From assembly GCF_007744075.1 (NCBI RefSeq), contig NZ_CP036266.1:248001-312000 (forward strand): a DNA stretch of 64,000 nt, given 5' to 3'. Below, in pieces: positions 1 to 13,200 of this stretch (the first letter of the stretch is position 1; the number at the start of each line of letters is the position of its first letter). The notes below the pieces were generated by a model. The model was given only the letters and a program-made list of their open reading frames with translations, made no database searches and had not been told where the DNA came from. This DNA is from Gimesia chilikensis (lineage in GTDB: Bacteria > Planctomycetota > Planctomycetia > Planctomycetales > Planctomycetaceae). The translations under genes were made by a program, and so were the position numbers.

Positions 1-453
1 GTTGCGCTGCTGGGAAAACCGGGTGATGAGACTGACTTTGGTGGTGCTTCGAGTGGCTTTCTTTATGGATGGTATGAGTTTTTTTATGAAACTGATACGA
101 AAGAAATCGAGGCCATACAGAATGATCATCTGCTGGATGGTGACCTGTTTGATTATCAGAACGAGCATTTCCAGGTCGATCCCTGGTTTTTCAAGGCGGG
201 AAAAGAGTTTACTTTCCCGGAGGTTGTCGATCTCCTGCAGGATGAACAGATTCCATTTCGAGTTGTCAGACGCCACGGAACGGGCCCAGAAGTAATCGAA
301 TTTAAGAGTGGCGTTCATTTCGACTTTATAGAGGAATGTGACGCACAAACAGGGAAAGAGAGCGGTGAAAATGTTCTCCTGGCAATCAGATATTTTCCGC
401 TTTATTCAGATTCCTATGAAGTGGTGTACCAAAGCGGGGGGGGTAATGAGTAA
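1..453 (+). CDS. Partial hypothetical protein, C-terminal 150 residues
   Basis: The reading frame is open from the first base and ends at TAA 451-453, so the start lies upstream of the window. The visible part begins VALLGKPGDETDFGG and continues with an aromatic stretch (GFLYGWYEFFYETDT), then a beta-rich, acidic domain without membrane segments. The 'LLGxPxDxxDFGG...YGxxEFxF' opening resembles small cytoplasmic immunity-like or integron-cassette proteins, but that is a resemblance from memory and not an assignment. It lies 23 bases before another small unknown gene. No catalytic motif is visible. Confidence 0.75.
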   Translation, partial: VALLGKPGDETDFGGASSGFLYGWYEFFYETDTKEIEAIQNDHLLDGDLFDYQNEHFQVDPWFFKAGKEFTFPEVVDLLQDEQIPFRVVRRHGTGPEVIEFKSGVHFDFIEECDAQTGKESGENVLLAIRYFPLYSDSYEVVYQSGGGNE

Positions 454-476
454 GAATCTTTTTACTCGATTTCATT

Positions 477-794
477 ATGGAACTAACCAGGCCACAACTC
501 GATTTACTGGAGCGACTGCAGTCGGCACTTGACGGTCAGGCGGTGCAGGAATTCACTTATGAAACAGAGTACCTGGGCTATCTGCCGTATGGACAATATC
601 ACTGGCTGGCAGCGGCTGGCCAGCATTTACCAAGCGAGATTCTGGACGGCATGCTATTCTCAGATCTTGAGGCGCTGGAAAAAGCAGGGTACCTGCTGCG
701 GGTGAGTGAGTGGCAAAATCCCGAAGACGATACGCACTCCAAAATTACGTTTGTGCTGCGTTCCGATGACGCTGATGTGCGAAGGTCTGTCTGA
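477..794 (+). CDS. Small hypothetical protein, 105 aa
   Basis: The product starts MELTRPQLDLLERLQSAL and has a helical N-terminus followed by an acidic, mixed region. It has no signal peptide, membrane segment or cysteine motif. It follows the preceding gene on the same strand after 23 bases, so the two may be cotranscribed. No good ribosome binding site precedes the ATG, which lowers confidence. The family is not recognised. The setting among immunity-like genes suggests a similar accessory role, but nothing in the protein itself shows it. Confidence 0.55.
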   Translation: MELTRPQLDLLERLQSALDGQAVQEFTYETEYLGYLPYGQYHWLAAAGQHLPSEILDGMLFSDLEALEKAGYLLRVSEWQNPEDDTHSKITFVLRSDDADVRRSV

Positions 795-949
795 ATTCAA
801 GGTGAGATCTGCGTTCGTCATAACGACGATGAGCGTATTCACTTGACAATGGCGCGCGAATAGACAAAATTACACTCTCCCTGTCGTTAATGAATGAATC
901 AGTTCGCATTTCGTTCAGTGCAGGCTGTCTTGTCAGAGGAGACTCCCCC

Positions 950-1375
950 ATGTTTGCTGCTGAAGACGTCAACGGTATCTTTATCACGATGCATGTCGCA
1001 GACGAACAGGTGCTTTTCCTCCTGCTGACTGCAGACGGGACGGTCAACCGGATGGGGACCGGTTCTGAAGACAATACTGAAAAGCAGCTCTTCATCGATC
1101 AACGGTCGTCTGAAATGTTCGAGGCACTGAAGTCGCGGATCCAGCCCGAAACCACAGAATGGGAGGGGGGCTACGCCGATCCTGAACCCCAGGGCAAAAC
1201 CTGTTGTCTTACCGTGGGTTTTATGAACGGGGACGGAGAGGAATCCGTCTGTAAATTCCAATATGGTTCCGAATCTCAAGGTCCGCCGCCGGATCTCTGT
1301 CAGCTGGTGATCTCCGCCATCGAGATTACGGAACCGTGGTACCAGGAACAGAAACAACTCACATCCGAAGGGTAA
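950..1375 (+). CDS. Hypothetical protein, 141 aa
   Basis: I chose ATG 950 because AGAGGAG lies just upstream; an in-frame ATG at 890 has no such site. The protein is acidic and soluble, starts MFAAEDVNGIFITMHV, and alternates beta strands with polar loops (LLLTADGTVNRMG, CLTVGFMNGDGEE). It has no signal peptide or recognisable catalytic motif. It ends 8 bases before the start of the 2OG-Fe(II) oxygenase gene, so the two are probably cotranscribed. Function unknown. Confidence 0.65.
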   Translation: MFAAEDVNGIFITMHVADEQVLFLLLTADGTVNRMGTGSEDNTEKQLFIDQRSSEMFEALKSRIQPETTEWEGGYADPEPQGKTCCLTVGFMNGDGEESVCKFQYGSESQGPPPDLCQLVISAIEITEPWYQEQKQLTSEG

Positions 1376-1383
1376 TCTGCTGC

Positions 1384-2019
1384 ATGCCTGAAGAAAACTG
1401 GCTCAATGACTCTGTTTTCACTGTCGAGAATTTTTTAACCCCCGAGGAGTGCCAGAAGTACATTCGCATCAGCGAAGATTTTGGCTACGAAGATGCACTG
1501 GTCTCCAGCCCGCGGGGCCAGGTCCTGCGGAAAGATCTCCGCAATAATGAGCGGGTGATGTTACAGAACGAAGAAATCGCCGCGTGGCTGTGGGAACGGG
1601 CCGGCGATTTTGTGCCGTATCAGTATGACGACCGGTCGGCGATCGGCGTTAACGAAATGTTACGTTTCTATCGCTACGATCCCGGGCAGCAGTTCAACTG
1701 GCACCAGGACTTTCCGTTCGAACGCGATAACGGCGAACAGAGCTATCTGACGCTGATCATCTATCTGAATGATGACTTCGAAGGGGGAGAGACCTCTTTC
1801 GAGGATTCCTATTCCGAGGAAATGTTCGATGAATTCAAAGTCGTCCCGCAACAGGGAATGGCGTTGTTCTTTGAGCATGCGATTCATCATAAAGGCGAAC
1901 CGGTGACGCGGGGCCGCAAGTATGTGTTGCGTACGGATGTGATGTTTGCCGCCGAAGAGGCAGAGGCCGCGTACGATTATGAAGATGAGTACGACGCTGA
2001 AGATGATGATGAATGGTGA
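1384..2019 (+). CDS. 2OG-Fe(II) oxygenase, prolyl 4-hydroxylase type
   Basis: A 211-residue protein of the P4H-like 2-oxoglutarate/Fe(II) dioxygenase superfamily, which hydroxylates protein or small-molecule substrates. Iron ligands are visible: H107 and D109 in WHQDFP, and the distal histidine at about 169 in HHKGEP. The strand GRKYVLRTDVMF that follows carries the basic residue expected to hold 2-oxoglutarate. The core GGETSF strand is also typical. A highly acidic tail (DYEDEYDAEDDDEW) follows the fold. ATG 1384 is preferred over an in-frame GTG at 1336 because it follows a purine-rich GAAGGG and clears the upstream gene. The substrate is unknown. Confidence 0.88.
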   Translation: MPEENWLNDSVFTVENFLTPEECQKYIRISEDFGYEDALVSSPRGQVLRKDLRNNERVMLQNEEIAAWLWERAGDFVPYQYDDRSAIGVNEMLRFYRYDPGQQFNWHQDFPFERDNGEQSYLTLIIYLNDDFEGGETSFEDSYSEEMFDEFKVVPQQGMALFFEHAIHHKGEPVTRGRKYVLRTDVMFAAEEAEAAYDYEDEYDAEDDDEW

Positions 2020-2175
2020 TTCCAGGGGGAGCAGAATGCGAAACAGGCAATTCAGCATTATGCAGATCGGTTCCTGAAGTTCTTTTCAGTTTGAGTGAGA
2101 ATCAGCTCCCACGACTCAGCAACCCGGCGGACTCAATCGAATCGACCGATTCGACTTTAGATAAAAGGTGACACT

Positions 2176-4761
2176 ATGCCCAAGATGGAATTTGATTTCC
2201 AAGGTTTAATCCAGCTACTGGCCAAGAATCTGTATAGCGAAAAACGCGTCTTCATTCGTGAACTCATCCAGAACGCGCATGACGGGATATTGCGTCGTGA
2301 ATCACGTGAACCCGATGGGTTTTCACCCCGGATCGATGTCGAAAGCCGACCAGACGAACTGCAGTTCATTATCCGCGATAACGGTCTCGGTATGGACTTC
2401 AACGATATCGGCGAGTACCTGGCTGTTATCGGCCGTGGCGCCACGCGTCTGGAAAAGGGGGACGTTACCGGATTGGTCGGCCAGTTTGGCATCGGCTTTC
2501 TGTCGGCGTTCATTGTGGCTGAGCGTGTCGAAGTCGAAACACGGAAGGTGGGGGACGACGACGGGTGGAAGTGGTCAAACAGCGGCACACAGGATTACAC
2601 GGTAACCAAGGTCAGTAAGGACTCATTTGGAACGACTGTGACGGTCTTCCTGAAAGGGGAAGAGGACAAAGGGGTTATCCATCCGGAAGAAGTTGACAAT
2701 GTCATTCGTAAATACGCCGACATGCTGAAAGTGCCGATTCATCTGAACGGCAGTCGCGAACCGATCAACCAGATGATCATGCCCTGGGAGCGTGACGATT
2801 TGAACCGGGAGACGCGTACCCGGGAAACACAAGACTATCTGGCCAAGACCATGGCCGACAGTCCGCTGGCGATTATTGATGTCGACATTGCGGACCCTGG
2901 TCCAACGCAAGGGGTCCTTTACATTTCCGATCAGCGTTCGCTGCCCAATCATGAACAGCCTCCGGGAAGAGTCAGGCTGTATCTGCAACGAATGTTTCTG
3001 TGTGAAACGACGGACCTGCTGCCGCCGTGGGCCCGGTTTGTCCGGGGAGTGATCAATACTTCCGCAATCACCCCCACCGCGGCGCGTGACAACTTTGTGC
3101 GCGACGAGGTCACCGATCGCATCAAAGAAGAATTCGGGCATCTCATCATTGAACAACTGCGCGAACTTTCGCTGGACGAGCCACAACGTTTCCAGAGAAT
3201 CCTGAAATATCATGATATCGGCATCAAGGCTGCCTGCTACGAATACGATGAACTGTTCCGCAACGTGGCCAACCTGCTCGAGTGGCGGACGAATTGTGGT
3301 GGCAAGTCGAGTGAAGAGGAGAGCTATAGCGGCTTTTACTGGCGACGCCTGCCTGAAATTCTTTCGGCGCTGCCTAAGTCGGAATCCGGGCCCCAGGCGC
3401 TGCCCTGTTTCGCCACGGCGTTCTCGGCGAATCAGTATTTCAATATGGCGGAATCTGCGAACTCACTGGTGATTGACGCCAGTGGTCCCTTTGAAATGTT
3501 GCTGCTGGAGCAATACGCAAAGTTCAAAGATGTTTCTATCAAAATTATTCGCGTCGACCAGGTTGACGACCCGAACATCTTTCGCCACCTGGAAGAACAT
3601 CAGGAAGAAGTTCGCTTTCAACGTCTGGCAACACGCATGGAACAGGTGGTCAAGCCCCGAGGGAGATCGATCCGTGTCGAGGCGCGGAAGTTCAAGCCCA
3701 CAGAGCTGGCTGCACTGATTCGCACCACCGAGCGTTCCGAGATGCATCAACAGGCAGAGGATCTGCTGAATCAGCCCAATACTCCCCAGAGTATGCGTGA
3801 GATGGCGGAGACGCTGCTCCAGATGACCTCGGCAGAAGCAATGCGGCTCACGATTAATGCGGACAACAGCCTGATTCGTGATATTGCCGAACATCCCGAG
3901 TTGTTCGGCGAACCGGACGTGGATGAAATTCTCAGCGGAATCTACAACAATGCGATTCTCTTTAATCAAGATCTCTTAACGACGGAAAATACTCAGATTC
4001 TGAATCAGCAGATGCATCGGCTGTTAGTGAAACACTGGGAAACTGTGTCTGAGATGGAAGAGGCGATGATACTGCAGCCGGAGCGGGACCAGCCCAAGCT
4101 GGATGTGGTGCCTGCGAAAAATCCGGAGCGACAGCACCGCTGTGTCTTCATGGTGACACCAGAGGCTGCGGAGTTCGACGACGTCATCGACGCCGTCCGC
4201 ACCGTTGTGGAAGACTACTGGAAATGTGAGTTACTGCTGGCTCGTGACCTGAAGCAGAAATCGACCGACGGTATTCGACGGCTGATGAATCGGGCTGACG
4301 CATTTATTGTCGAGTCCACGACCGGGCAACCGCAGGTGATGTTGGAAACCGGTGCGGTTCGCTTTGATCCTCGCTCACGTCCGTTTGTACTTCTGCGCGA
4401 TGAGACGCACGAACTGCGAGAGGACATGCCCTTCGACCCGGGCGATCAGAATTGTATTGACTACAGCGGGCGGGCAGATAAAGCGCTGGCGGAGTATCTC
4501 GACCACGAAATGCAAAAAGATGTCAACGTCGCGCAGCTGCTTAAGGATTCTGCGCGGCAGCGTTTTCTTTCCCCCAGGCGGCTCATCGAGCTGTTTAAGC
4601 CTGTGACGCTGGATGCATTAATGGTTCGTACCCTGGTGAGCAGATTCCCTACCGAGGAGCGCTGGCGAAAAGTGACCGCGGAAGATCTCGCCGACTGCCT
4701 GGATGAACATAAGGGCTTTGCCAGCATACTTCTGGATAACGTCCACAAATCACTGAATTGA
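2176..4761 (+). CDS. HSP90-type ATPase with C-terminal TIR/deoxyribosyltransferase-like domain, 861 aa
   Basis: Residues 1-350 have the HSP90 GHKL ATPase plan: RELIQNAHDG (catalytic-type E29, Mg-binding-type N33), DNGLGM at 68-73 and GQFGIGF at 102-108. The HSP90 middle domain follows (VRLYLQRMFL, then FVRGVINTS and ARDNFVRDE with the expected arginine). HtpG is about 630 residues; this protein has about 230 more. Residues 655-770 look like a Rossmann-type TIR or nucleoside deoxyribosyltransferase-like domain: a CVFMVTP strand, DAFIVES, then QVMLETGA with E724 in the usual acidic position, then RPFVLLRDE. HSP90 family membership is clear; the C-terminal domain is a pattern-based inference. 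The stop lies 12 bases before the next gene, so they form a likely operon. It is not an ordinary HtpG. Confidence 0.85.
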   Translation: MPKMEFDFQGLIQLLAKNLYSEKRVFIRELIQNAHDGILRRESREPDGFSPRIDVESRPDELQFIIRDNGLGMDFNDIGEYLAVIGRGATRLEKGDVTGLVGQFGIGFLSAFIVAERVEVETRKVGDDDGWKWSNSGTQDYTVTKVSKDSFGTTVTVFLKGEEDKGVIHPEEVDNVIRKYADMLKVPIHLNGSREPINQMIMPWERDDLNRETRTRETQDYLAKTMADSPLAIIDVDIADPGPTQGVLYISDQRSLPNHEQPPGRVRLYLQRMFLCETTDLLPPWARFVRGVINTSAITPTAARDNFVRDEVTDRIKEEFGHLIIEQLRELSLDEPQRFQRILKYHDIGIKAACYEYDELFRNVANLLEWRTNCGGKSSEEESYSGFYWRRLPEILSALPKSESGPQALPCFATAFSANQYFNMAESANSLVIDASGPFEMLLLEQYAKFKDVSIKIIRVDQVDDPNIFRHLEEHQEEVRFQRLATRMEQVVKPRGRSIRVEARKFKPTELAALIRTTERSEMHQQAEDLLNQPNTPQSMREMAETLLQMTSAEAMRLTINADNSLIRDIAEHPELFGEPDVDEILSGIYNNAILFNQDLLTTENTQILNQQMHRLLVKHWETVSEMEEAMILQPERDQPKLDVVPAKNPERQHRCVFMVTPEAAEFDDVIDAVRTVVEDYWKCELLLARDLKQKSTDGIRRLMNRADAFIVESTTGQPQVMLETGAVRFDPRSRPFVLLRDETHELREDMPFDPGDQNCIDYSGRADKALAEYLDHEMQKDVNVAQLLKDSARQRFLSPRRLIELFKPVTLDALMVRTLVSRFPTEERWRKVTAEDLADCLDEHKGFASILLDNVHKSLN

Positions 4762-4773
4762 AGGCTGTCATCA

Positions 4774-5913
4774 ATGGAACCGGAAGCATACATACTGATC
4801 GAACATGCGCGAGAAGCTTACAGACAGGGACGCTTTGTGGAAGCGGGAGTTCTGGCAGGTCAAGTTTGCAAGGATGCGAAGCAGGCCGGCCATGATGAAA
4901 TGGCATTCCAGTTGGGCCTGTTCGAGGTACAAAGCCTGCTGCGTGCGGGTAAACCGCTGGGCGCATTGAATCGCCTGCTTACGATGGAGTCCTGGGAGGC
5001 GCCGCGTCATGAGTCTTTGTACCAAATGCGAGAAGAGACTTTCAATCTGCTGCGGCTTTACAATCCCGATCTGACGCAGTTAGAAACGCGGCTTGCAGAA
5101 CTGGAGAGTCTTGCCAGAAGTGCTCTTGATGGAACTGTTTCCGACTTCCGGTTGTATGAATTTCTGTTTTTGGAAGATCAGGGTAAGGATGAGAAGGCCC
5201 TCAATGCCACAGAGCAGGCCTGGTCGGAACGCGGCCCGGCAACCATGAACCATGCGCACGCAACTGCTTCTAACAGCTGCCTGGCGAACCTGCGCCTGAA
5301 TCGACGTTCGCAGGCCGAGGAATGGATCAAAATCATGAAGCGTGATGGCGAGACCGAATGCCTGGGATTTCGAGCCGATCTCGCGGACTCTCAGGCCGAG
5401 CTTGCCCTTTATGACGGTCGTGCTGAGGACGTGTTTCATCATGCACAGCAGCAACGTCGAGTCGCCATGGAATATGCGGATTTGACGCGCGTCCATGAGG
5501 CGATCGAAAAACAGGTTCGTGCGCGATTACTTGATGCAACAAACGGAGATCCGGGCGATCGCAGGTCCGGCGTGATAGACGTCCTCAAACAGGCTCTTCC
5601 CGGGAAACGCAGCGTTCAATTAGAGTTCACTTTCAGTCTGCTGATACTCGATATCCGGCTCGCCGCAGTGCGTTGGGCTGTGGGCATGCAACCGGCAGAA
5701 GATTTCTGGTATCAGTCACCGCAGGTCGTGGCCAGTGAGTTGCGCGTTGCGAAGGATGAAGTGATCCGTCGGATTGAGAAGGCCAAGGCTGCCATCCGAC
5801 GTACGGACAAAATCGCTCGTCGAGTGGATCAGGCGTTTGGCTGTGACTGGAGACAGGCAGCGGTCAACAGCCGGAGAGAGCGGCTTCAGGAAGTGGTTTC
5901 CAATCTGGATTGA
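4774..5913 (+). CDS. Helical-repeat (TPR-like) protein, 379 aa
   Basis: The protein is almost entirely alpha-helical, with TPR-like pairs such as AREAYRQGRFVEAGVLAGQV at 13-32 and later AQAEL/ALYDGRAEDVFHHA units. It has no signal peptide or membrane segment and is probably cytoplasmic. The C-terminal third is a charged helical segment (VIRRIEKAKAAIRRTDKIARR). It starts 12 bases after the HSP90-type gene, with GAAGG upstream, and is very likely cotranscribed with it. Helical-repeat proteins commonly act as cochaperones or adaptors of HSP90, so a partner role is a reasonable inference. No catalytic residues are seen. Confidence 0.75.
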   Translation: MEPEAYILIEHAREAYRQGRFVEAGVLAGQVCKDAKQAGHDEMAFQLGLFEVQSLLRAGKPLGALNRLLTMESWEAPRHESLYQMREETFNLLRLYNPDLTQLETRLAELESLARSALDGTVSDFRLYEFLFLEDQGKDEKALNATEQAWSERGPATMNHAHATASNSCLANLRLNRRSQAEEWIKIMKRDGETECLGFRADLADSQAELALYDGRAEDVFHHAQQQRRVAMEYADLTRVHEAIEKQVRARLLDATNGDPGDRRSGVIDVLKQALPGKRSVQLEFTFSLLILDIRLAAVRWAVGMQPAEDFWYQSPQVVASELRVAKDEVIRRIEKAKAAIRRTDKIARRVDQAFGCDWRQAAVNSRRERLQEVVSNLD

Positions 5914-6030
5914 GGTCTGACTTCCGATCAACGGGGGTGATGAGGAGCCACACCCAGATTCAGTTCAGGCAGGTATAACATGAAAAAGTGCTGACGTTTT
6001 TTAATCCTTTTCAACGATGATAGCCCAACC

Positions 6031-6528
6031 ATGGAACTCGAAGCAGACATTATTGATCGCCTGCGTGACGATTTTGATGAACAGCAGGCCCCGGCAGCGA
6101 TCGCAGAACTTGTGGCCAGCGGTCAAACGGGTCGAATCGCCCGTTGCATTGTACACGCCGCTCATGGATCTATGGAGCGGTTGCGAGAACTGACAGTCTC
6201 TTTCCTGATCGCCTCGCCGGACGATTTCTGGATTTTGCCCATTGCCGATGTTGCCGACAGGCACGGATTTCGATTGACGGCTCTGGAGTCACGCCCGGCT
6301 ACAGCTGGTCCGTTCGAATACACCTCTGACCGCAATGAAGGACTCGCGTGCTTCTCAAATGGCACTACTTATTTCGCGGTACAGAAACAGGATCGGGAAT
6401 GGTCAATTTCTGCACCGGGACTCGATGTCCGTCCGTTTGGGTTGAAAAATACCTACGACGAAGAAGGATTAGGTATCCAGCTGGATGACTACCTTTCACG
6501 GAATCATACTGAAACAGGACCACTCTAA
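6031..6528 (+). CDS. Hypothetical protein, 165 aa
   Basis: A soluble acidic protein starting MELEADIIDRLRDDFDEQQ. The N-terminal half is helical (AAIAELVASGQTGRIARCIV), and the C-terminal half is beta-rich, ending with a YDEEGLGIQLDDYL segment. The next gene's ATG follows its stop codon directly, suggesting translational coupling. The compact alpha-plus-beta layout would suit an immunity-like protein, and DUF4375 lies nearby, but I do not recognise the family. Confidence 0.7.
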   Translation: MELEADIIDRLRDDFDEQQAPAAIAELVASGQTGRIARCIVHAAHGSMERLRELTVSFLIASPDDFWILPIADVADRHGFRLTALESRPATAGPFEYTSDRNEGLACFSNGTTYFAVQKQDREWSISAPGLDVRPFGLKNTYDEEGLGIQLDDYLSRNHTETGPL

Positions 6529-6855
6529 ATGTGGAGTTACAGATTAAAATGCCCCTGTGGCTTCGTATCAAACGTTGAAGGTTATGGGAGAGACCTTTTT
6601 TCATCACCCGATTATTACGTTCCCGTTGTTGTGGATGGTGACGAAAAGTTACATCATATTTGTATCCAACCAAGGGAAGGTGAGTCCGAGGAAGAATTTG
6701 ACGATCGTCTTCAATCTTCAATTGAGGAATGCTTTGCAGAACAATTTGGTGAGAATGCGACACTGATGACTGGATTGGGGATACGCGGCGACCAGATTGT
6801 GAAATGTCCGCGTTGTGGACAAAAGCAAGCAAAGTTTGATTTTGCTGGTTTCTAA
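6529..6855 (+). CDS. Small zinc-ribbon protein, 108 aa
   Basis: The protein begins MWSYRLKCPCGF and ends with KCPRCGQKQAKFDFAGF. The CxC near the N-terminus and CxxC near the C-terminus make a split four-cysteine zinc site likely. Between them is an acidic segment (GESEEEFDDRLQSSIEECF). The ATG directly abuts the preceding stop codon, so translation is probably coupled. Codon use is more AT-rich than in its neighbours, a possible sign of separate origin. No catalytic motif; the role is unknown. Confidence 0.7.
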   Translation: MWSYRLKCPCGFVSNVEGYGRDLFSSPDYYVPVVVDGDEKLHHICIQPREGESEEEFDDRLQSSIEECFAEQFGENATLMTGLGIRGDQIVKCPRCGQKQAKFDFAGF

Positions 6856-6882
6856 AAAACTCCGCACGTGGGAGAAGCGAGC

Positions 6883-7386
6883 ATGACACCAGAGGACTTG
6901 CTGGGTGAGCTTTCTATCAGAATCTACGAACCGCCGCTTACCGATATGCGCGAGGATGGTCGGATCTGTAATGCTGCGGATCCCGTGGCGGTGCTGATGC
7001 TTATCCTGGACTTTGATACTGAAGTTGCCATGAATGGGATCGATAATTTCATCGGCAACAGTAGCGGCAGGTATACGCGGGCAACCATTACCGCATTGCA
7101 GACGATTGGCGCTCAATCTCAGGCGGCTCTGCTTGAGAAAATTCTGGCGGTTGCGGATGAGGCCGGAATGACTCATGACGCGATCCAGGAGGATCGGTCA
7201 GGGCTCGACGAATTCGCCATCACTAGTTTCGAGAAACTGCATGGTGATAAATGGGATGCCGCCTCTGATGGCATCCAGACACTCGATGCGCAGATCGATT
7301 ATTCCGACATGCTGGCCTGCGCAGAGTCGTATGCAGGAAATCACAGCGCCGTGCTACACCGGGCGCTGGGGATCATAGACGGCTGA
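6883..7386 (+). CDS. DUF4375 (DMP19-like) domain protein
   Basis: The region AMNGIDNFIGNSSGRYT, followed by ATITALQTIGAQSQAALLEKI, is the characteristic DUF4375/DMP19 pattern: 'NGG..QFF.NSSG', then a helix with A..IGA. DMP19 of Neisseria is described as a DNA mimic. In many bacteria DUF4375 proteins accompany polymorphic-toxin immunity genes. ATG 6883 follows GGAGAAG at the right spacing; GTG 6868 upstream does not. The protein is acidic and cytoplasmic, 167 residues. No toxin gene is adjacent in this window. Confidence 0.75.
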   Translation: MTPEDLLGELSIRIYEPPLTDMREDGRICNAADPVAVLMLILDFDTEVAMNGIDNFIGNSSGRYTRATITALQTIGAQSQAALLEKILAVADEAGMTHDAIQEDRSGLDEFAITSFEKLHGDKWDAASDGIQTLDAQIDYSDMLACAESYAGNHSAVLHRALGIIDG

Positions 7387-7639
7387 AGCACGAGGTACGC
7401 GCGACGCAGTTTTTTTCCGTCGTGTGACTCAATGCTGCTCTACAACCCGGCCGCGGGAGTTCATTCAGAGGTCCTGTCTCGCGCACGAGCGACCTCCTCC
7501 CTTTGAGTTTCTACCCCTTCTCCGGATGGTCCCGGCTCATTGTCTCTTTGACAAAAGTTTGCCGATTCTACCCCCCATTGTGTTCCCTGAATGTTTCAGG
7601 GATTTGAAGTGAGTCTTTTTATTTAAACAGGAGATTATT

Positions 7640-8119
7640 ATGCGACGTATTCCCAGATTCATTACTAATGATGAGCGTCTCGACGAGTACCGTTCCTTGC
7701 CGCTGGATGAGGCTTTAGCGCGGATTATTGCTGTCTGGCGGTCCCTGCCGGCACTGTACCGCGGACCGGGGCCCATTGGCATGAAAGAGATTCCGTTGGG
7801 ATCTCAACTGGCCGACTGGCTTGTGTATGAGCATCCGGAAACCGAGCAGGCACTCTACGATCATCTGCAGGATGAGAGTGTCGTGTTGCGTGCCTACTGC
7901 GTTCATACGCTACTCAGGATGGGCAGTCGCCTGCTGCTGAAGGTGCCTGATACGATAACCGAGTGTCACGATAAGGTGACGCGCTGCTACGGTTGCAGTA
8001 TCGTGCCTGCCCCTTTGTCTGACCTGTTCACCGACGAACTGGATAGTAACAGGCGCATGTTCGAAGGCGAAGACGCTGATAAACCGAGCGGCTGGTGGCA
8101 TCACGAGTCAGAGCGGTAA
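7640..8119 (+). CDS. Hypothetical protein, 159 aa
   Basis: The start is well supported by AGGAG nine bases before the ATG. The protein has a helical middle with a HEAT-like segment (EQALYDHLQDESVVLRAYCV), then a cysteine-containing loop (CYGCS) and an acidic C-terminus ending GWWHHESER. There is no signal peptide or membrane segment. It is the last gene of the accessory run and is separated from the upstream gene by about 250 bases that contain no convincing coding sequence. Family not recognised. Confidence 0.65.
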   Translation: MRRIPRFITNDERLDEYRSLPLDEALARIIAVWRSLPALYRGPGPIGMKEIPLGSQLADWLVYEHPETEQALYDHLQDESVVLRAYCVHTLLRMGSRLLLKVPDTITECHDKVTRCYGCSIVPAPLSDLFTDELDSNRRMFEGEDADKPSGWWHHESER

Positions 8120-8525
8120 CAGACGGCATTCAGCAGAATGCGGATCTGAATCGATGAAAATCGTAGGCCCGGCCGGTTTCGCTGAAGTTCAGTCAGGAAC
8201 CGCCGGGTCGCAGATCCTCAGTGATGTGTGCTGGTACGCTGCTCGGGTAATGACAGGCTCCGGTCACGTAAACTGCGTCATTTTGTCATTTTGAACACTA
8301 AATTTACCCAATATTAACATGTTTAATTGTACGGCAACATGTTCCTCAGTATAGTTTCGGTCCGGGTCATTTTTATAGTTGCCGATTTTCGGATTGGCGG
8401 CTGGCGTCGCCCTCACCCATCGGTATTTCAAGGCGGACACCTGGAGGCTGGCGCTGTGCGCACGCTCCAGTTCAGACCCGATTGATGTTGAATTATCTGC
8501 TTAAATTCATACCTGGAGGGGATCG
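8120..8525. other. Intergenic region before a DUF1559 gene
   Basis: About 400 bases without a convincing gene. The right half is AT-rich (around 8276-8345) and probably holds the promoter and leader of the DUF1559 gene, but I cannot place clear -35 and -10 boxes. No strong terminator is visible. Confidence 0.5.
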
Positions 8526-9593
8526 ATGTTCGCTTGTCACAAACAGAAGAACGGGGTGCAGCGTCGGGGTGGTTTCACCCTGATTGAACTGCTGGTCGTG
8601 ATCGCCATTATTGGAATGCTGGTTTCGCTGCTGTTGCCTGCAGTGCAGCAGGCGCGTGCCGCCGCACGACGGACTCAGTGTAAGAATCATCTCAAGCAAC
8701 TCGGAATCGCGCTGCATAGTTTTGCTTCGACTTATGACGGCGACTTTCCGATGATTGGAATTCACGAGGGGGACCCGGGCGAGTATCGTTCGTGGGCGGT
8801 CATCCTGCTGCCTTACGTCGAACAGGGAACCGTGTATGAGGCATTGAAGCAGACGCCGACTTACGATCTGAGTACGGTTTCGATTCCCGTTTATACGTGC
8901 CCCGATGACGGGTCTGCGTCAGGCAAGCCGGGGCAGCTGACGTACGTGGTCAACTTTGGTTATGCGGGGCGCAGTTCGATTAACGGGACGCCGATTGCGC
9001 CTGGATTTATTCAAAAGCCTGGTTATTCTCTTCCGAGCGTTCCCTTCAGTGTGATCGCGTCCAACCGCCATGATTCGGAGACGGCTGACGGCGGATGGGG
9101 TACGGGGATGTTCTGGTCTGATAAGCCGGTGAATGTCTCGGGCGTCAACGTGGGTGACGGCACTTCGAATACGGTGGCGATGACCGAAAACATCTATGCC
9201 GGGAATCTGGGAGAATCGGTGATCTATCCCGGAAACAGTACGCCGGTCTCTGGAAATCCCGGGTTATGTCAGGTTGCGTTCGGCATAGGCGATGACGGGA
9301 TCTGGCTGGAAGGGGAATCGTCGGCCGGTAACGACACGGCGTCGCCGACGTCATTGAAGATCATCTCCACCGACCTGGAACGCTATGGGATCAATGCGGC
9401 TGTGTCGCATCCCGCGGGAGGATCGGAGGGGCTGATGCCGGCTCCCAATTCCCGACACACGGGTGGTGTGAACATGCTGTGGGTGGATGGTCGCGTGACG
9501 TTTGTGAGTGAGAACATCAATCAGGAAATCTACGCGGAATCGCTGACCTGGAATGGTGGCGACCAGCGGGGCAGAAGCAGCTCTCAGTATTGA
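8526..9593 (+). CDS. DUF1559 prepilin-like protein, 355 aa
   Basis: After a short basic leader the protein has [18 protein letters not shown], the type IV prepilin cleavage site and hydrophobic helix: cleavage after G, then F at +1 and E at +5. This is followed by the DUF1559 signature [20 protein letters not shown]. The C-terminus has the family's HTGGVNMLWVDGRVTFVSENI strand. Such proteins are greatly expanded in planctomycetes and are thought to be exported and assembled like pseudopilins; their function is not established. TGGAGGGGA precedes the ATG. Compared with the five paralogues at 46.8-55.8 kb it has a diverged helix (IGMLVS for IAILIA) and lacks the C-terminal GEF. Confidence 0.93.
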   Translation: MFACHKQKNGVQRRGGFTLIELLVVIAIIGMLVSLLLPAVQQARAAARRTQCKNHLKQLGIALHSFASTYDGDFPMIGIHEGDPGEYRSWAVILLPYVEQGTVYEALKQTPTYDLSTVSIPVYTCPDDGSASGKPGQLTYVVNFGYAGRSSINGTPIAPGFIQKPGYSLPSVPFSVIASNRHDSETADGGWGTGMFWSDKPVNVSGVNVGDGTSNTVAMTENIYAGNLGESVIYPGNSTPVSGNPGLCQVAFGIGDDGIWLEGESSAGNDTASPTSLKIISTDLERYGINAAVSHPAGGSEGLMPAPNSRHTGGVNMLWVDGRVTFVSENINQEIYAESLTWNGGDQRGRSSSQY

Positions 9594-9789
9594 GTGGCTA
9601 TGCTGTCATGTTGTTCTCGTCGAGCCAGTCTTCAAGTTTCTCGTGTGCCCTGAATCAACCTGACCTCATGTGATCTGGAGAGATGCAGCGGTTAGAGGCG
9701 CACCGCCTGACTGGTGGATGGTGTGGATCATCAATCTGTATTCTTGAGTTGGTGATGATTCTCTCAAGAAAAAGCTTGCCAGTGCGATC

Positions 9790-9813
9790 AATGTGCAGTA
9801 TTATCTGCACATT
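9790..9813. promoter_or_regulatory. Palindromic operator upstream of the BlaI-type repressor gene
   Basis: A perfect inverted repeat: AATGTGCAG at 9790-9798 and its reverse complement CTGCACATT at 9805-9813, separated by six bases (TATTAT). It ends directly before the AGAGGAGG ribosome binding site of the repressor gene. BlaI/MecI proteins bind dyads of this general size over their own promoters, so autoregulation is the natural reading. Confidence 0.75.
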
Positions 9814-9828
9814 AGAGGAGGAAGTCCG

Positions 9829-10191
9829 ATGTCGCGTTTTACACCAGGCGAACTTGCTGTGATGCAGATCCTGTGGGAACAGGGTGAGCTGAAGCCGAGC
9901 GAGTTGCAGGAGCATTTTCCGGAGCCGATTAAAAATCCGGCGCTGCGTTCCTACCTTGCGATCCTTGTCGAGAAGGGGCACATCTCACGTCGCAAGGTCG
10001 GTAAGGCTTACTATTACAAGGCGATCACGCGTCGCAAGGCGGCGTTTCGTTCGACGATTCGTCAGATAGTCGATGCTTACTGCGAAGGTTCCGCCAGGAA
10101 ACTCATTCTGGATCTGATTCGCGCAGAGAAGCTGAGCCAGGATGAGTTACTGGAACTCAAACGGCTGGCCGATGATCCCCAGCAAAAATGA
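9829..10191 (+). CDS. BlaI/MecI/CopY family transcriptional repressor
   Basis: A 120-residue winged-helix protein. The N-terminal FTPGELAVMQILWEQGELKP and the recognition-helix region (ALRSYLAILVEKGHISRRK) match the BlaI/MecI family, and the C-terminal helices supply the dimerisation and cleavage region. I chose ATG 9829 because AGAGGAGG precedes it; a GTG at 9793 lies inside the palindrome and would be a poor start. The M56 metallopeptidase gene starts 14 bases after its stop. The expected circuit is that the repressor binds the palindrome until the M56 partner inactivates it. Confidence 0.92.
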   Translation: MSRFTPGELAVMQILWEQGELKPSELQEHFPEPIKNPALRSYLAILVEKGHISRRKVGKAYYYKAITRRKAAFRSTIRQIVDAYCEGSARKLILDLIRAEKLSQDELLELKRLADDPQQK

Positions 10192-10205
10192 TTCGGGAGG
10201 CGAAG

Positions 10206-13200
10206 ATGTCATCCACCTTGAACTGGTTGATGGGCAGCAGTGATGGTTTATCAAATAGTGCCCTGCTGATTCTGATTCGATTGACGTTGATTCTGATGGT
10301 GGCCTGGCTCTGTCACTGTGCCTGCAGCCGCTGGAATCCCCGGCTGCGAATTTTACTGTGGCGGATGACGGCGGCCAGTCTGATAATCGTGACTGTTTTG
10401 AGTCTGCTGCCCTACCGACTGCAACTGGCACTGCTGCCTGCCGCCTCCCCTGTTGTGGAAGTGGATGAGGTCGTCGAACCTCCTGATCTGAATGAAACGG
10501 CTGCTGCCAGAGAGCTGACTGTGCCTGTGAGTGGTCCCTTATCCCGGGACATCGTGCTTTCTGACAGAGGGTTAACGCCGCTGAATGAGCGGCCGCCGAT
10601 CGAGGACACCGCCGCCACGCAGGCGTCTATTGTTGAGAATGCGGGGACGCAGGAGACGGTTCTCACAGCAAGTTGGTTTCCCACTGGTTTGTTGGGTTAT
10701 GCCTGCGTAATCTGGGCCCTCGGTGTGGCGCTGCTTACATTGAGCTGGTTGGGCGGCGTGCTCAGTCTCGTGGCACTCTATCGACGTGCGATACCGGTGC
10801 CTGCCGAAATTCAGGATCAGGCTGAGGCGATTGCTGCACAGCTCGGCTATCTGAAATCGATTGATGTCCGTTGCAGTGAGGAAGTGCAAACTCCCTTCAT
10901 CGTAGGAGCATGGCGGCCCGGGGTATTAATACCGGTGCAACAATGCGCTGCTGCAGAACGCCAGGAATTACAGGCGTCTTTGGCACATGAGATCGCCCAC
11001 TGCCGGGGGAATGACCTGCGCTGGCATCATCTTTTCACGCTGTTACAGATTCTGCTCTGGTTCCATCCGCTGATGTGGAGAACCCGCGTCGTGCATGCGG
11101 ACGCCTGCGATGAACTCTGCGATTTAAAAGCCGCCGGCTATCTGGGGGATGACAAATTGTATGGGCGTCTGCTGGCGGGGCTGGCGTTACGCGTGGCAGA
11201 GCGAAACAGGAGTGCCGCCCTGGCGATGGCCCGCCGATCGCAGGTGCGCAAACGAATTGAAGCCGTGAGTCGCAACCGGGCCAGCAGGGGATTGAACCGC
11301 TGGCAGGCGGGCAGCATGCTGACGACGGCGGTCGCGATGGTGGTTCTCCTGGGAGTGGTGCGCATCAGTCGCGCCCAGGAACAGCCGTCAGAGGCTAAAG
11401 ACCAGCCACAGACAGTGCAGGTCAAGGAGAGTGAGCAGGCTCAGGGCGTCAAAGAGACGCTCTCCGGAACCGGCGAACCGGGGGCGACGGTGAAGCTTTA
11501 TCGTTATCCCGAAGGGTATGCCAAGCCTGTCTTTCAGGGAGAGACAACCATTGACGACCGTGGTCACTTTACATTTCAAGATGTGCAGATGCCTGGTGAG
11601 GGAGGCCGCTTGACCATGGTTGCCACCAAGGCTGGTTATTCGTCGGCGATGTGGTCGATGTGGCCAGAGTACCAACGCCCTAAGTTATCCTTGCGCATGA
11701 AATCAGACACCGCTGCCTTGAGCGGTACGATTACCGATGAGAATGGAAACCCGGTTGCTGATGCGGTGGTCACGCTACAGTCGTCTCAGTATCCGATACC
11801 GGGATTCCGTATGGCCAAAACCGACAGCCAGGGGCGGTACACCATTAAGGATCTGGCTGCCTGGAATTCAGATAAGTCGAACACAAAGTCCCCGTCGAAC
11901 AAAAAAGGGTACACGGTCACGCGATGCTTGTTCCGGGTGCATCACGCAGATTATCCGATCACGATCGCGTCGTATTCGCAGCTTCCGCAAACCGTTGACG
12001 TTACATTGCATCCCCCGGCGATTGTGGAAGGGCAGGTGGTTGATCTGGTGACGGGAGAGCCGCTGGCCGATGTTGAGGTTCATGCGCAAGGGATCGCCCG
12101 GTATGGTGGTTTCACAACCAGGACGGATGCCAACGGCAACTACAAACTCCGCATGACGACTGATTATTACAATATCTGGGCCGTCGCACCGGAGCGGATG
12201 CCCCTGGCGATCAAAGCCCTGAAAGTGATGGAGGGACAGCGGCAGGCGGGCAGAGATATCCCGATGGCCCGGGGTGGCTATGTGACCGGGAAAGTGATTG
12301 ATCCGGCGACGGACCAACCCATTGATGGCGACAAGCTGAAGATGCAAGTGGCCCATCATGGGCCGGCGCGACCGATGACCGGGGCCGCAGTCACTAGCAC
12401 CAGAGTGCAAGCGGATGGAACCTATCGTCTGCACGTGGCGCCGGGACGAAACTACATTTACCTGATGAATGGGAGCTCTACCCCGGGTTATCTGAAAGTC
12501 GGCGATGGTCAGACGGTGCACCGTGATATTGTCATCGGTGAGCTGGCGGAGAAGCCGCAGGTTCCTGATCCGGACCTGATGTTGCGGGGTAAGTTAATGA
12601 GAGCCGCGTTAGTGGATGATCAAAGAGAGTCCCCACCTGCTGGCATCGAGGAGGATGAGGCAAAGTTGCCTCCCAAAGAATCCGTCGGAAAACTACTGGC
12701 GGAACTTAAAGAGCTGAACTCAGGGTCGGACCGGTTCAGCGATGAGTGGGCCAATCAACTGCGGAAGATCGCGGTCCTGGGACCTGACGTGGTGCCGGAA
12801 CTGGTCGCGGAACTGGATCAGACGTCGGATGATATGCTGCTCCGCTGTCTCGGTTTTATCTTGCGTGCGATTGGCGACAAACGCGCGGTTCCTGGCCTGA
12901 TCCGGGCAATTCCTAAAACGTTAATTCGCCCCGGTTCCGATATGGGTTTGCAGATTCGGGAAACGGATGTCGCACTGCTCAAGTTCATGCAACAGCACGA
13001 CCTGAGTCAGCAACACAGAGGCAGTGAATATGGATTTGGGCGGCCTGTCCGCGAAATCTTTGGTGCCCTGGAGTCGCTGACCGGTCAGAATTTTGGTGAT
13101 CAGGAACTGAATCACATCTTTCTAAATGAGTATGATTTCCCCAGTCAGAAACAGGCCAAGGCGGCGCTGTTCCACCAGGTTGCCGCACGTTGGGCGCAGT

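Follow-up and report, generated by a model that had tools for sequence, protein, structure and literature searches.

A window of 64,000 nucleotides on the Gimesia chilikensis chromosome (contig NZ_CP036266.1, positions 248,001 to 312,000, forward strand), which is 8.29 Mb long and assembled as one contig, carries a gene pair that probably makes up a bacterial immune system, so far undescribed, under HSP90 control. The first gene, P0001 (window positions 2176 to 4761, + strand), encodes an 861-residue protein with an HSP90-type ATPase followed by a TIR/nucleoside deoxyribosyltransferase-like (hereafter TIR-like) domain. The second, P0002 (4774 to 5913, + strand), starts 12 bases after the end of P0001 and encodes a 379-residue protein predicted to fold as a tetratricopeptide repeat (TPR) superhelix. 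We consider it fairly likely that the pair is an accessory two-protein module of immunity or conflict in which HSP90 gates the TIR-like domain, with cleavage of nicotinamide adenine dinucleotide (NAD+) and phage defence as its presumed chemistry and role. The evidence lies in the identity of the domains, the intact ATPase and Glu residues, the linkage of the two genes, their patchy spread, a presence/absence segment around them, and conflict-system genes next to some of their relatives. An earlier sequence-only reading had pointed to the pair, and the open reading frames (ORFs), the lengths and the 12-base gap are all as it gave them.

An HSP90 ATPase with a TIR-like tail

The HSP90 part of P0001, residues 1-611 (2176 to 4008, + strand), is recognized by PF00183 (HSP90) and HATPase_c_3 above the Pfam cut-offs, is covered by the NCBIfam HtpG profile over residues 5-611 and by the PRK14083 profile over residues 5-380, and matches TRAP1 and HtpG in the PDB at about 1e-39. 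The scores are below the cut-offs of the HtpG equivalog NF003555 (253.6 vs 371 bits) and of PRK14083/NF010683 (339.3 vs 455 bits). The HtpG of the same genome is encoded by a separate gene, and alignment with it places E29, N33, D36, D68, G70, G72, G102, G107 and R304 of P0001 at matching positions (E29 codon, 2260-2262; R304 codon, 3085-3087; both + strand). The catalytic Glu, the Asp, the glycine motif and the middle-domain Arg of a GHKL ATPase are therefore all present, and the claim of an intact HSP90 ATPase core made from sequence alone is borne out.

The region beyond residue 611 has no Pfam match of its own, and its identity was therefore established via relatives. A profile of 10 homologues, from which the window row was excluded, matches residues 647-860 of P0001 at 7.6e-58. 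An ordinary HSP90 C-terminal domain, which the sequence-only reading had named as the result that would overturn it, was considered for the tail and rejected, because the HtpG profile stops at residue 611 and the homologue profile matches 647-860; both the profiles and the structural model place the tail in another family. It comprises a TIR-like domain at about residues 647-770 (4114 to 4485, + strand), supported by the homologue profile, AlphaFold2 and Foldseek, and a C-terminal helical domain at about residues 771-861 (4486 to 4758, + strand), which is seen as helices in the AlphaFold2 model and is covered by the family profile, also on the trypsin-fused copies described below. The fold and the conserved Glu proposed earlier for residues 655-770 thus stand, while the limits are redrawn and the helical domain is added.

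The profile searches that had been suggested for the tail were run through the relatives. At E <= 1, PF10137 (CAP12/PycTIR TIR) matches 8 of 11 family members (best 5.1e-7) and PF05014 matches 6 of 11 (best 9e-4), the window being included in the 11; the window's own tail matches neither at this threshold, and P0003 scores 19.5 bits against PF10137, whose cut-off is 24.7. The AlphaFold2 model of the tail (predicted local distance difference test, pLDDT, 85.6; predicted template modelling score, pTM, 0.84) has an alpha/beta fold followed by the helical part. Its best Foldseek match in the PDB is a nucleoside deoxyribosyltransferase (2.8e-3), and the list also holds the SPARTA chain 8u72_B (2.9e-3), probably the TIR-APAZ subunit, as well as the plant TIR of RPS4, MilB, DNPH1 and the SpbK TIR. 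E724 (codon 4345 to 4347, + strand), the putative catalytic Glu, is the same residue in all 13 aligned HSP90-fused sequences, among them the divergent P0004 and the window's own, likewise divergent P0001. The tail thus combines a conserved Glu with an alpha/beta flavodoxin-like fold, as in the TIR-like NADases, with modest support from Foldseek.

These data also bear on whether the tail could be a nucleotide-metabolic enzyme, a nucleoside deoxyribosyltransferase or nucleotide N-hydrolase carried by a housekeeping HSP90 and serving a stress or damage response rather than immunity. The top Foldseek match, the further matches to MilB and DNPH1, and PF05014 in six members would all agree with such an enzyme, and DNPH1 is the best PDB sequence match of the family (8rpt_B, a weak profile E of 0.15), with the family Glu aligned to the Glu of its ELG motif. 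In the same weak alignment, however, the position of DNPH1 Asp80 (mutated in 8rpt; numbering inferred), which we take to be important for DNPH1 function, is V or I in the family; as far as sequence can tell, this leans towards TIR-type over DNPH1-type chemistry without settling the choice. PF10137 matches more members, and more strongly, than PF05014, and conflict-system neighbours in some relatives together with the patchy spread also speak against a metabolic role, which we regard as unlikely.

The TPR partner and its linkage to the fusion

The AlphaFold2 model of P0002 (pLDDT 89.6, pTM 0.87) is a TPR superhelix, and its Foldseek matches are mostly TPR proteins, such as APC5 (6.8e-6), OGT, LGN, IFIT1 and NprR. 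No Pfam TPR model matches P0002 at E <= 1. Model and Foldseek together support the earlier claim that a TPR-like protein follows P0001, and we assign it to this fold on the strength of the prediction.

To collect relatives, genome contigs were scanned. A single-sequence scan confirmed none, but a scan with a three-row alignment gave 196, of which 80 were kept. Twenty-three were inspected: the TIR-like tail is present in 10 and missing from 11, which are short HSP90s, and two (L113, cut at a contig end, and L163, broken by in-frame stops) were excluded from the fusion and partner counts. With the window, the congener G008, Pseudanabaena and a second Microcoleus locus, the 10 make up 14 HSP90-TIR-like loci, and such proteins occur in Planctomycetota, Acidobacteriota, Actinomycetota, Cyanobacteriota, Desulfobacteraceae and Chromatiaceae. 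A full-length profile run on 392 sampled Planctomycetota genomes, with at most two candidates scored per genome, gave whole-length matches only in the window genome, in G008 and in the TIR_2-bearing congener G010. P0001 being an orphan of a single genome is ruled out by these relatives. A phage-borne origin was likewise rejected, within the reach of the TIR-like motif scan: the TIR-like profile gave 51 viral-contig loci, none matching P0002 or the first 600 residues of P0001 (E <= 1e-3). Long frames in other planctomycetes (G257 and L171) had been candidates for further fusions; they show no extra domain by eye and are probably high-GC frame artefacts. Against plasmids, the P0003 tail matched nothing beyond the record it comes from and a single hypothetical protein of Paraburkholderia, encoded next to AbiE genes.

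A homologue of P0002 adjoins the HSP90-TIR-like gene on the same strand at 13 of the 14 loci. It lies downstream at 10, with two tandem copies in G008 and in the Desulfobacteraceae locus L093, and upstream at the three cyanobacterial loci L098, L099 and L103; at four loci the genes overlap by 1-4 bases. Leave-one-out profiles of 12 aligned partners recover each at 1e-19 to 1e-142, and the second Microcoleus partner is found at 1.3e-44. The exception is Pseudanabaena, where a TPR protein of a different kind stands one gene further away. This neighbourhood survey, proposed from the sequence alone as the check on the pair, shows that it is neither unique nor loosely linked, and extends it to several phyla.

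A chance gene fusion without functional consequence would fit the rarity of the architecture. We consider it extremely improbable, because the same architecture is conserved, with partner and Glu, between P0001 and nine of 12 other aligned sequences at 39-46% identity. Of the other three, the Desulfobacteraceae sequence is 31% identical, the Pseudanabaena sequence 29% and the G008 orthologue 91%.

A presence/absence segment

The pair lies in a segment of 4,770 bp (2102 to 6871) that is absent from the close relative G005, in line with the earlier suggestion of an accessory region. Window positions 1-2101 and 6872-11213 align to a contiguous stretch of G005 (L247) at 97.0% and 94.5% identity, and GAGAA stands at both segment junctions (2097-2101 and 6872-6876) and is shared at the G005 junction. 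The segment could be a gain in the window genome or a loss in G005. Two small ORFs accompany the pair and are perhaps cargo: one of 165 residues (6031 to 6528, + strand) matching no Pfam family, and one of 108 residues (6529 to 6855, + strand), a possible zinc ribbon with sub-threshold zinc-ribbon/rubredoxin-like matches only.

Near the two segment ends, at 2106-2113 and 6867-6874, we also observe an 8-bp inverted repeat, CTCCCACG / CGTGGGAG. Repeats as long occur in 27 of 2000 random pairs of 40-mers, and it may or may not be the trace of an insertion mechanism.

Only one of 16 congeners, G008, has an orthologue (two of the 16 genomes are less than 80% complete). The G008 copy occupies a different chromosomal place, and just one of its sides is syntenic with G000 and G009. 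Beyond this copy (L256, 3752-6738), a weak SocA/Panacea antitoxin-like match (E 0.007, below cut-off) hints at a variable region.

Origin of the fusion

In a tree of 39 HSP90 rows, the window protein and ten other TIR-like members group together at 100/100. The Pseudanabaena, Desulfobacteraceae (L093) and second Microcoleus proteins fall outside that clade, among tail-less short forms such as those of Competibacter and Geomonas, and the tail was therefore lost there or gained more than once. Two proteins from metagenome-assembled genomes (MAGs), L112 (Chromatiaceae) and L111 (Holophagales), group with each other at 100/100 despite belonging to different phyla, the pattern expected from horizontal transfer; mis-binning of the MAGs could also produce it.

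A further arrangement is found in the congener G010 (L034, 418-6608), in which an HSP90 with a canonical TIR_2 domain (1.1e-19) is followed by three tandem TPR genes of another TPR family. Its HSP90 lies outside the TIR-like clade on a long branch, and the tree program flagged the placement as unsure. Because its TIR belongs to another family, this is likely a second HSP90-TIR fusion, and by this comparison the fusion probably arose more than once.

The HSP90-partner arrangement itself is more widespread than the tail. Of 57 further loci, taken from L114-L172 without L157 and L163, 49 have a plain HSP90, in most cases of about 580-620 residues, followed by a helical partner of about 340-390 residues. 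The two genes frequently overlap by 4 bases, and the loci come from Bacillota, Bacteroidota, Planctomycetota and other groups. One of the eight misses is at a contig end, and one of the 49, L114, is the locus of a profile-building row. The partner families of the plain and TIR-like forms are remotely related (hhalign probability 93.4), and the plain HSP90 with such a partner appears to be the ancestral state. Since the plain pair is widespread, the window pair represents a TIR-armed branch of a common operon. Through such an operon, bacteria too would possess an HSP90 that has its own TPR partner; an orthologue of the TPR co-chaperone Hop is reported to be missing from bacteria (PMC7688965). 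No description of the plain operon was found in the open-licence PMC literature, among the matches listed.

On plasmid records of Pseudomonas, Xanthomonas and Streptomyces, short HSP90 genes stand directly before large genes (765-1034 residues) that match or are annotated as TPR proteins (L048, 5878-10119; L049, 5944-10167; L051, 5974-10944).

Gene neighbours

The neighbours of some relatives are of conflict type. In L098, L099 and L103, the first gene of the operon is Trypco1-like (E 6e-5 to 3e-4, slightly short of the cut-off); next comes a Trypsin_2 protease with a fused TIR-like domain that lacks the Glu, then the TPR partner and finally the HSP90-TIR-like gene. L103 additionally has a standalone TIR-like copy without the Glu. 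The second Microcoleus locus (L240) encodes the HSP90-TIR-like protein, a TPR protein and a TIR-like-EAD8-Trypsin_2 protein that retains the Glu; EAD domains are among the features shared with MoxR-vWA and related NTP-dependent conflict systems. In the Desulfobacteraceae locus L093, one run on the + strand contains the HSP90-TIR-like gene, a pair of TPR genes and, after them, TIR_2/ThsB_TIR and SLOG genes. These five loci (trypsin with Trypco1-like three times, EAD8-trypsin once, TIR with SLOG once) support the conflict-system interpretation that the sequence-only reading had offered. No cyclase was recognized among the scanned neighbours of the relatives.

On a Pseudanabaena plasmid (L047, 10619-11317), a standalone TIR-like protein with Gln replacing the Glu is encoded next to the HSP90-TIR-like gene, and genes for a TIR protein, a VWA protein and an AAA ATPase are close by.

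The Glu is retained in the HSP90 fusions and lost in three of four protease-fused copies and both standalone copies, a distribution that suggests mixed assemblies of active and docking copies. The Glu-less copies, and the off-consensus motif of P0001, might even suggest that the window TIR-like domain docks without catalysis, recruiting other proteins through TIR-TIR contacts while the HSP90 serves as a chaperone scaffold. We find this quite improbable: E724 is kept in all 13 aligned HSP90 fusions, the divergent P0001 and P0004 among them, and the window genome yielded no TIR-like partner of this family.

The same loci bear on what the output might be. Rather than killing by itself, the HSP90-gated domain could make a nucleotide messenger of the cADPR type for separate effectors, as in Thoeris. 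The TIR_2/ThsB_TIR and SLOG genes in the L093 run and the protease genes of the cyanobacterial relatives would suit such signalling, but neither a SLOG gene nor a protease gene is recognized in the window segment, and the search of the window genome gave no further TIR-like copy. A messenger role is possible, though we would not favour it for the window pair.

Proposed function

These data are most economically explained, we infer, by a TIR-like output that is gated by HSP90 and accompanied by a TPR co-factor. The HSP90 ATPase, presumably a dimer, would be the switch, the TIR-like domain at its C-terminus the output, and the TPR protein a dedicated co-factor, whether as a sensor, as an adaptor for clients or as a brake. 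In the resting state, the open HSP90 clamp together with the TPR protein would hold the TIR-like domains apart. A client or ligand derived from infection or stress might trigger ATP-dependent closure of the clamp, so that the TIR-like domains meet and E724 cleaves NAD+ or a related nucleotide, leading to depletion or a signal and, as a phenotype, to defence. In the richer relatives, the output may be passed to the protease bearing the same TIR-like domain or to the TIR/SLOG pair, and the Glu-less protease-fused copies (three of four) would be docking copies.

Several observations weigh against this reading. The tail alone has no Pfam match past the HSP90 part; its model has no Foldseek PDB match at <= 1e-3, and the Rossmann-like proteins FixJ, PorX, Lmo0035 and lysine decarboxylase score alike within the same top 50. 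The P0001 motif, QPQVMLETG, departs from the family consensus NPNVMFELG. Carriers are rare among the sampled genomes, seeds included: 2 of 392 in Planctomycetota, 2 of 244 in Cyanobacteriota, 1 of 246 in Actinomycetota and 1 of 199 in Acidobacteriota. Several homologues come from MAGs, where mis-binning could mimic transfer, and the HSP90-TPR pair in its plain form is common and may have a housekeeping role. Conflict-type neighbours were found at just five of the 14 loci as tested; the others show none, mostly by reading of ORFs rather than by profiles. Around the pair, nine further ORFs of the many in the window gave no PADLOC match, and no defence island is seen; nor did the window genome yield a second TIR-like copy. 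Finally, the viral scan, made through the TIR-like motif at 51 loci, gave no HSP90 or P0002 homologue, though it may have missed viral copies. We nevertheless retain the HSP90-gated module as the preferred interpretation; if it is true, the HSP90 ATP cycle would be directly testable as an immune switch.

Comparison with known systems

The pair does not fall into a catalogued defence system. Against PADLOC-DB 2.0.0, P0001 matches only N-terminal ATPase stretches of the TmtA and REase_II models (best 7.1e-12, residues 8-121) and P0002 matches nothing; neither ThsA/ThsB nor a MoxR and vWA pair is matched by any of the segment's four ORFs. The sequence-only reading knew of no described two-gene unit of this form, and, consistently, we found no description of a bacterial HSP90-TIR fusion or of the unit in the open-licence PMC literature, among the matches listed.

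The closest NCBIfam model to P0001, PRK14083/NF010683 'HSP90 family protein' (604-residue model), is without the TIR-like tail; the short HSP90s of the 57 loci would be comparable to it. A Streptomyces gene annotated 'HSP90 family protein' also has an adjoining helical partner. CAP12/PycTIR (PF10137), an effector of CBASS and Pycsar, resembles the family in its Glu within an NPNVMFELG-type motif, but the regulator fused to it here is HSP90. Thoeris combines the TIR protein ThsB with the SLOG protein ThsA, and TIR and SLOG genes adjoin the Desulfobacteraceae unit, whereas neither ThsA nor ThsB is recognized in the window segment. To our knowledge, HSP90 and TPR proteins are not Thoeris components.

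A chaperone-type NTPase serving as a threshold switch is described for MoxR-vWA and related NTP-dependent conflict systems, where trypsin-like peptidases are also said to be accompanied by Trypco1 (Kaur et al. 2020, PMC7159879); in the present pair, HSP90 would replace MoxR-vWA, and the words 'HSP90' and 'GHKL' do not occur in that paper's main text. The Swarozyc/DUF4062 TIR-like NADases of a preprint (PMC13174449) have a divergent TIR-like domain near the nucleoside deoxyribosyltransferases with a conserved Glu; 'HSP90', 'GHKL' and 'chaperone' are absent from its main text. For bNACHT25, the chaperone DnaJ is reportedly involved in phage sensing by the immune protein (PMC12169576), but there DnaJ is a separate host protein, whereas in P0001 one protein contains both chaperone and output domain.

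The plant HSP90-SGT1-RAR1 assembly offers a parallel in parts, although it is spread over separate genes and we claim no common descent with the bacterial pair. Plants, animals and bacteria all use TIR effectors in immunity, and the TIR receptors of plants are serviced by HSP90 and its TPR co-chaperones; in HSP90-SGT1-RAR1 with TIR-NLR receptors, an HSP90, a TPR protein and TIR immunity cooperate. In P0001, HSP90 and the TIR-like domain are joined in one polypeptide. We see an even chance that the pair represents a new class of immune system, in which an HSP90 clamp and a dedicated TPR co-chaperone gate a fused TIR-like enzyme, TIR-type domains having been added at least twice to a widespread HSP90-TPR operon, and which would be a bacterial single-polypeptide counterpart of the plant HSP90/TPR/TIR triad.

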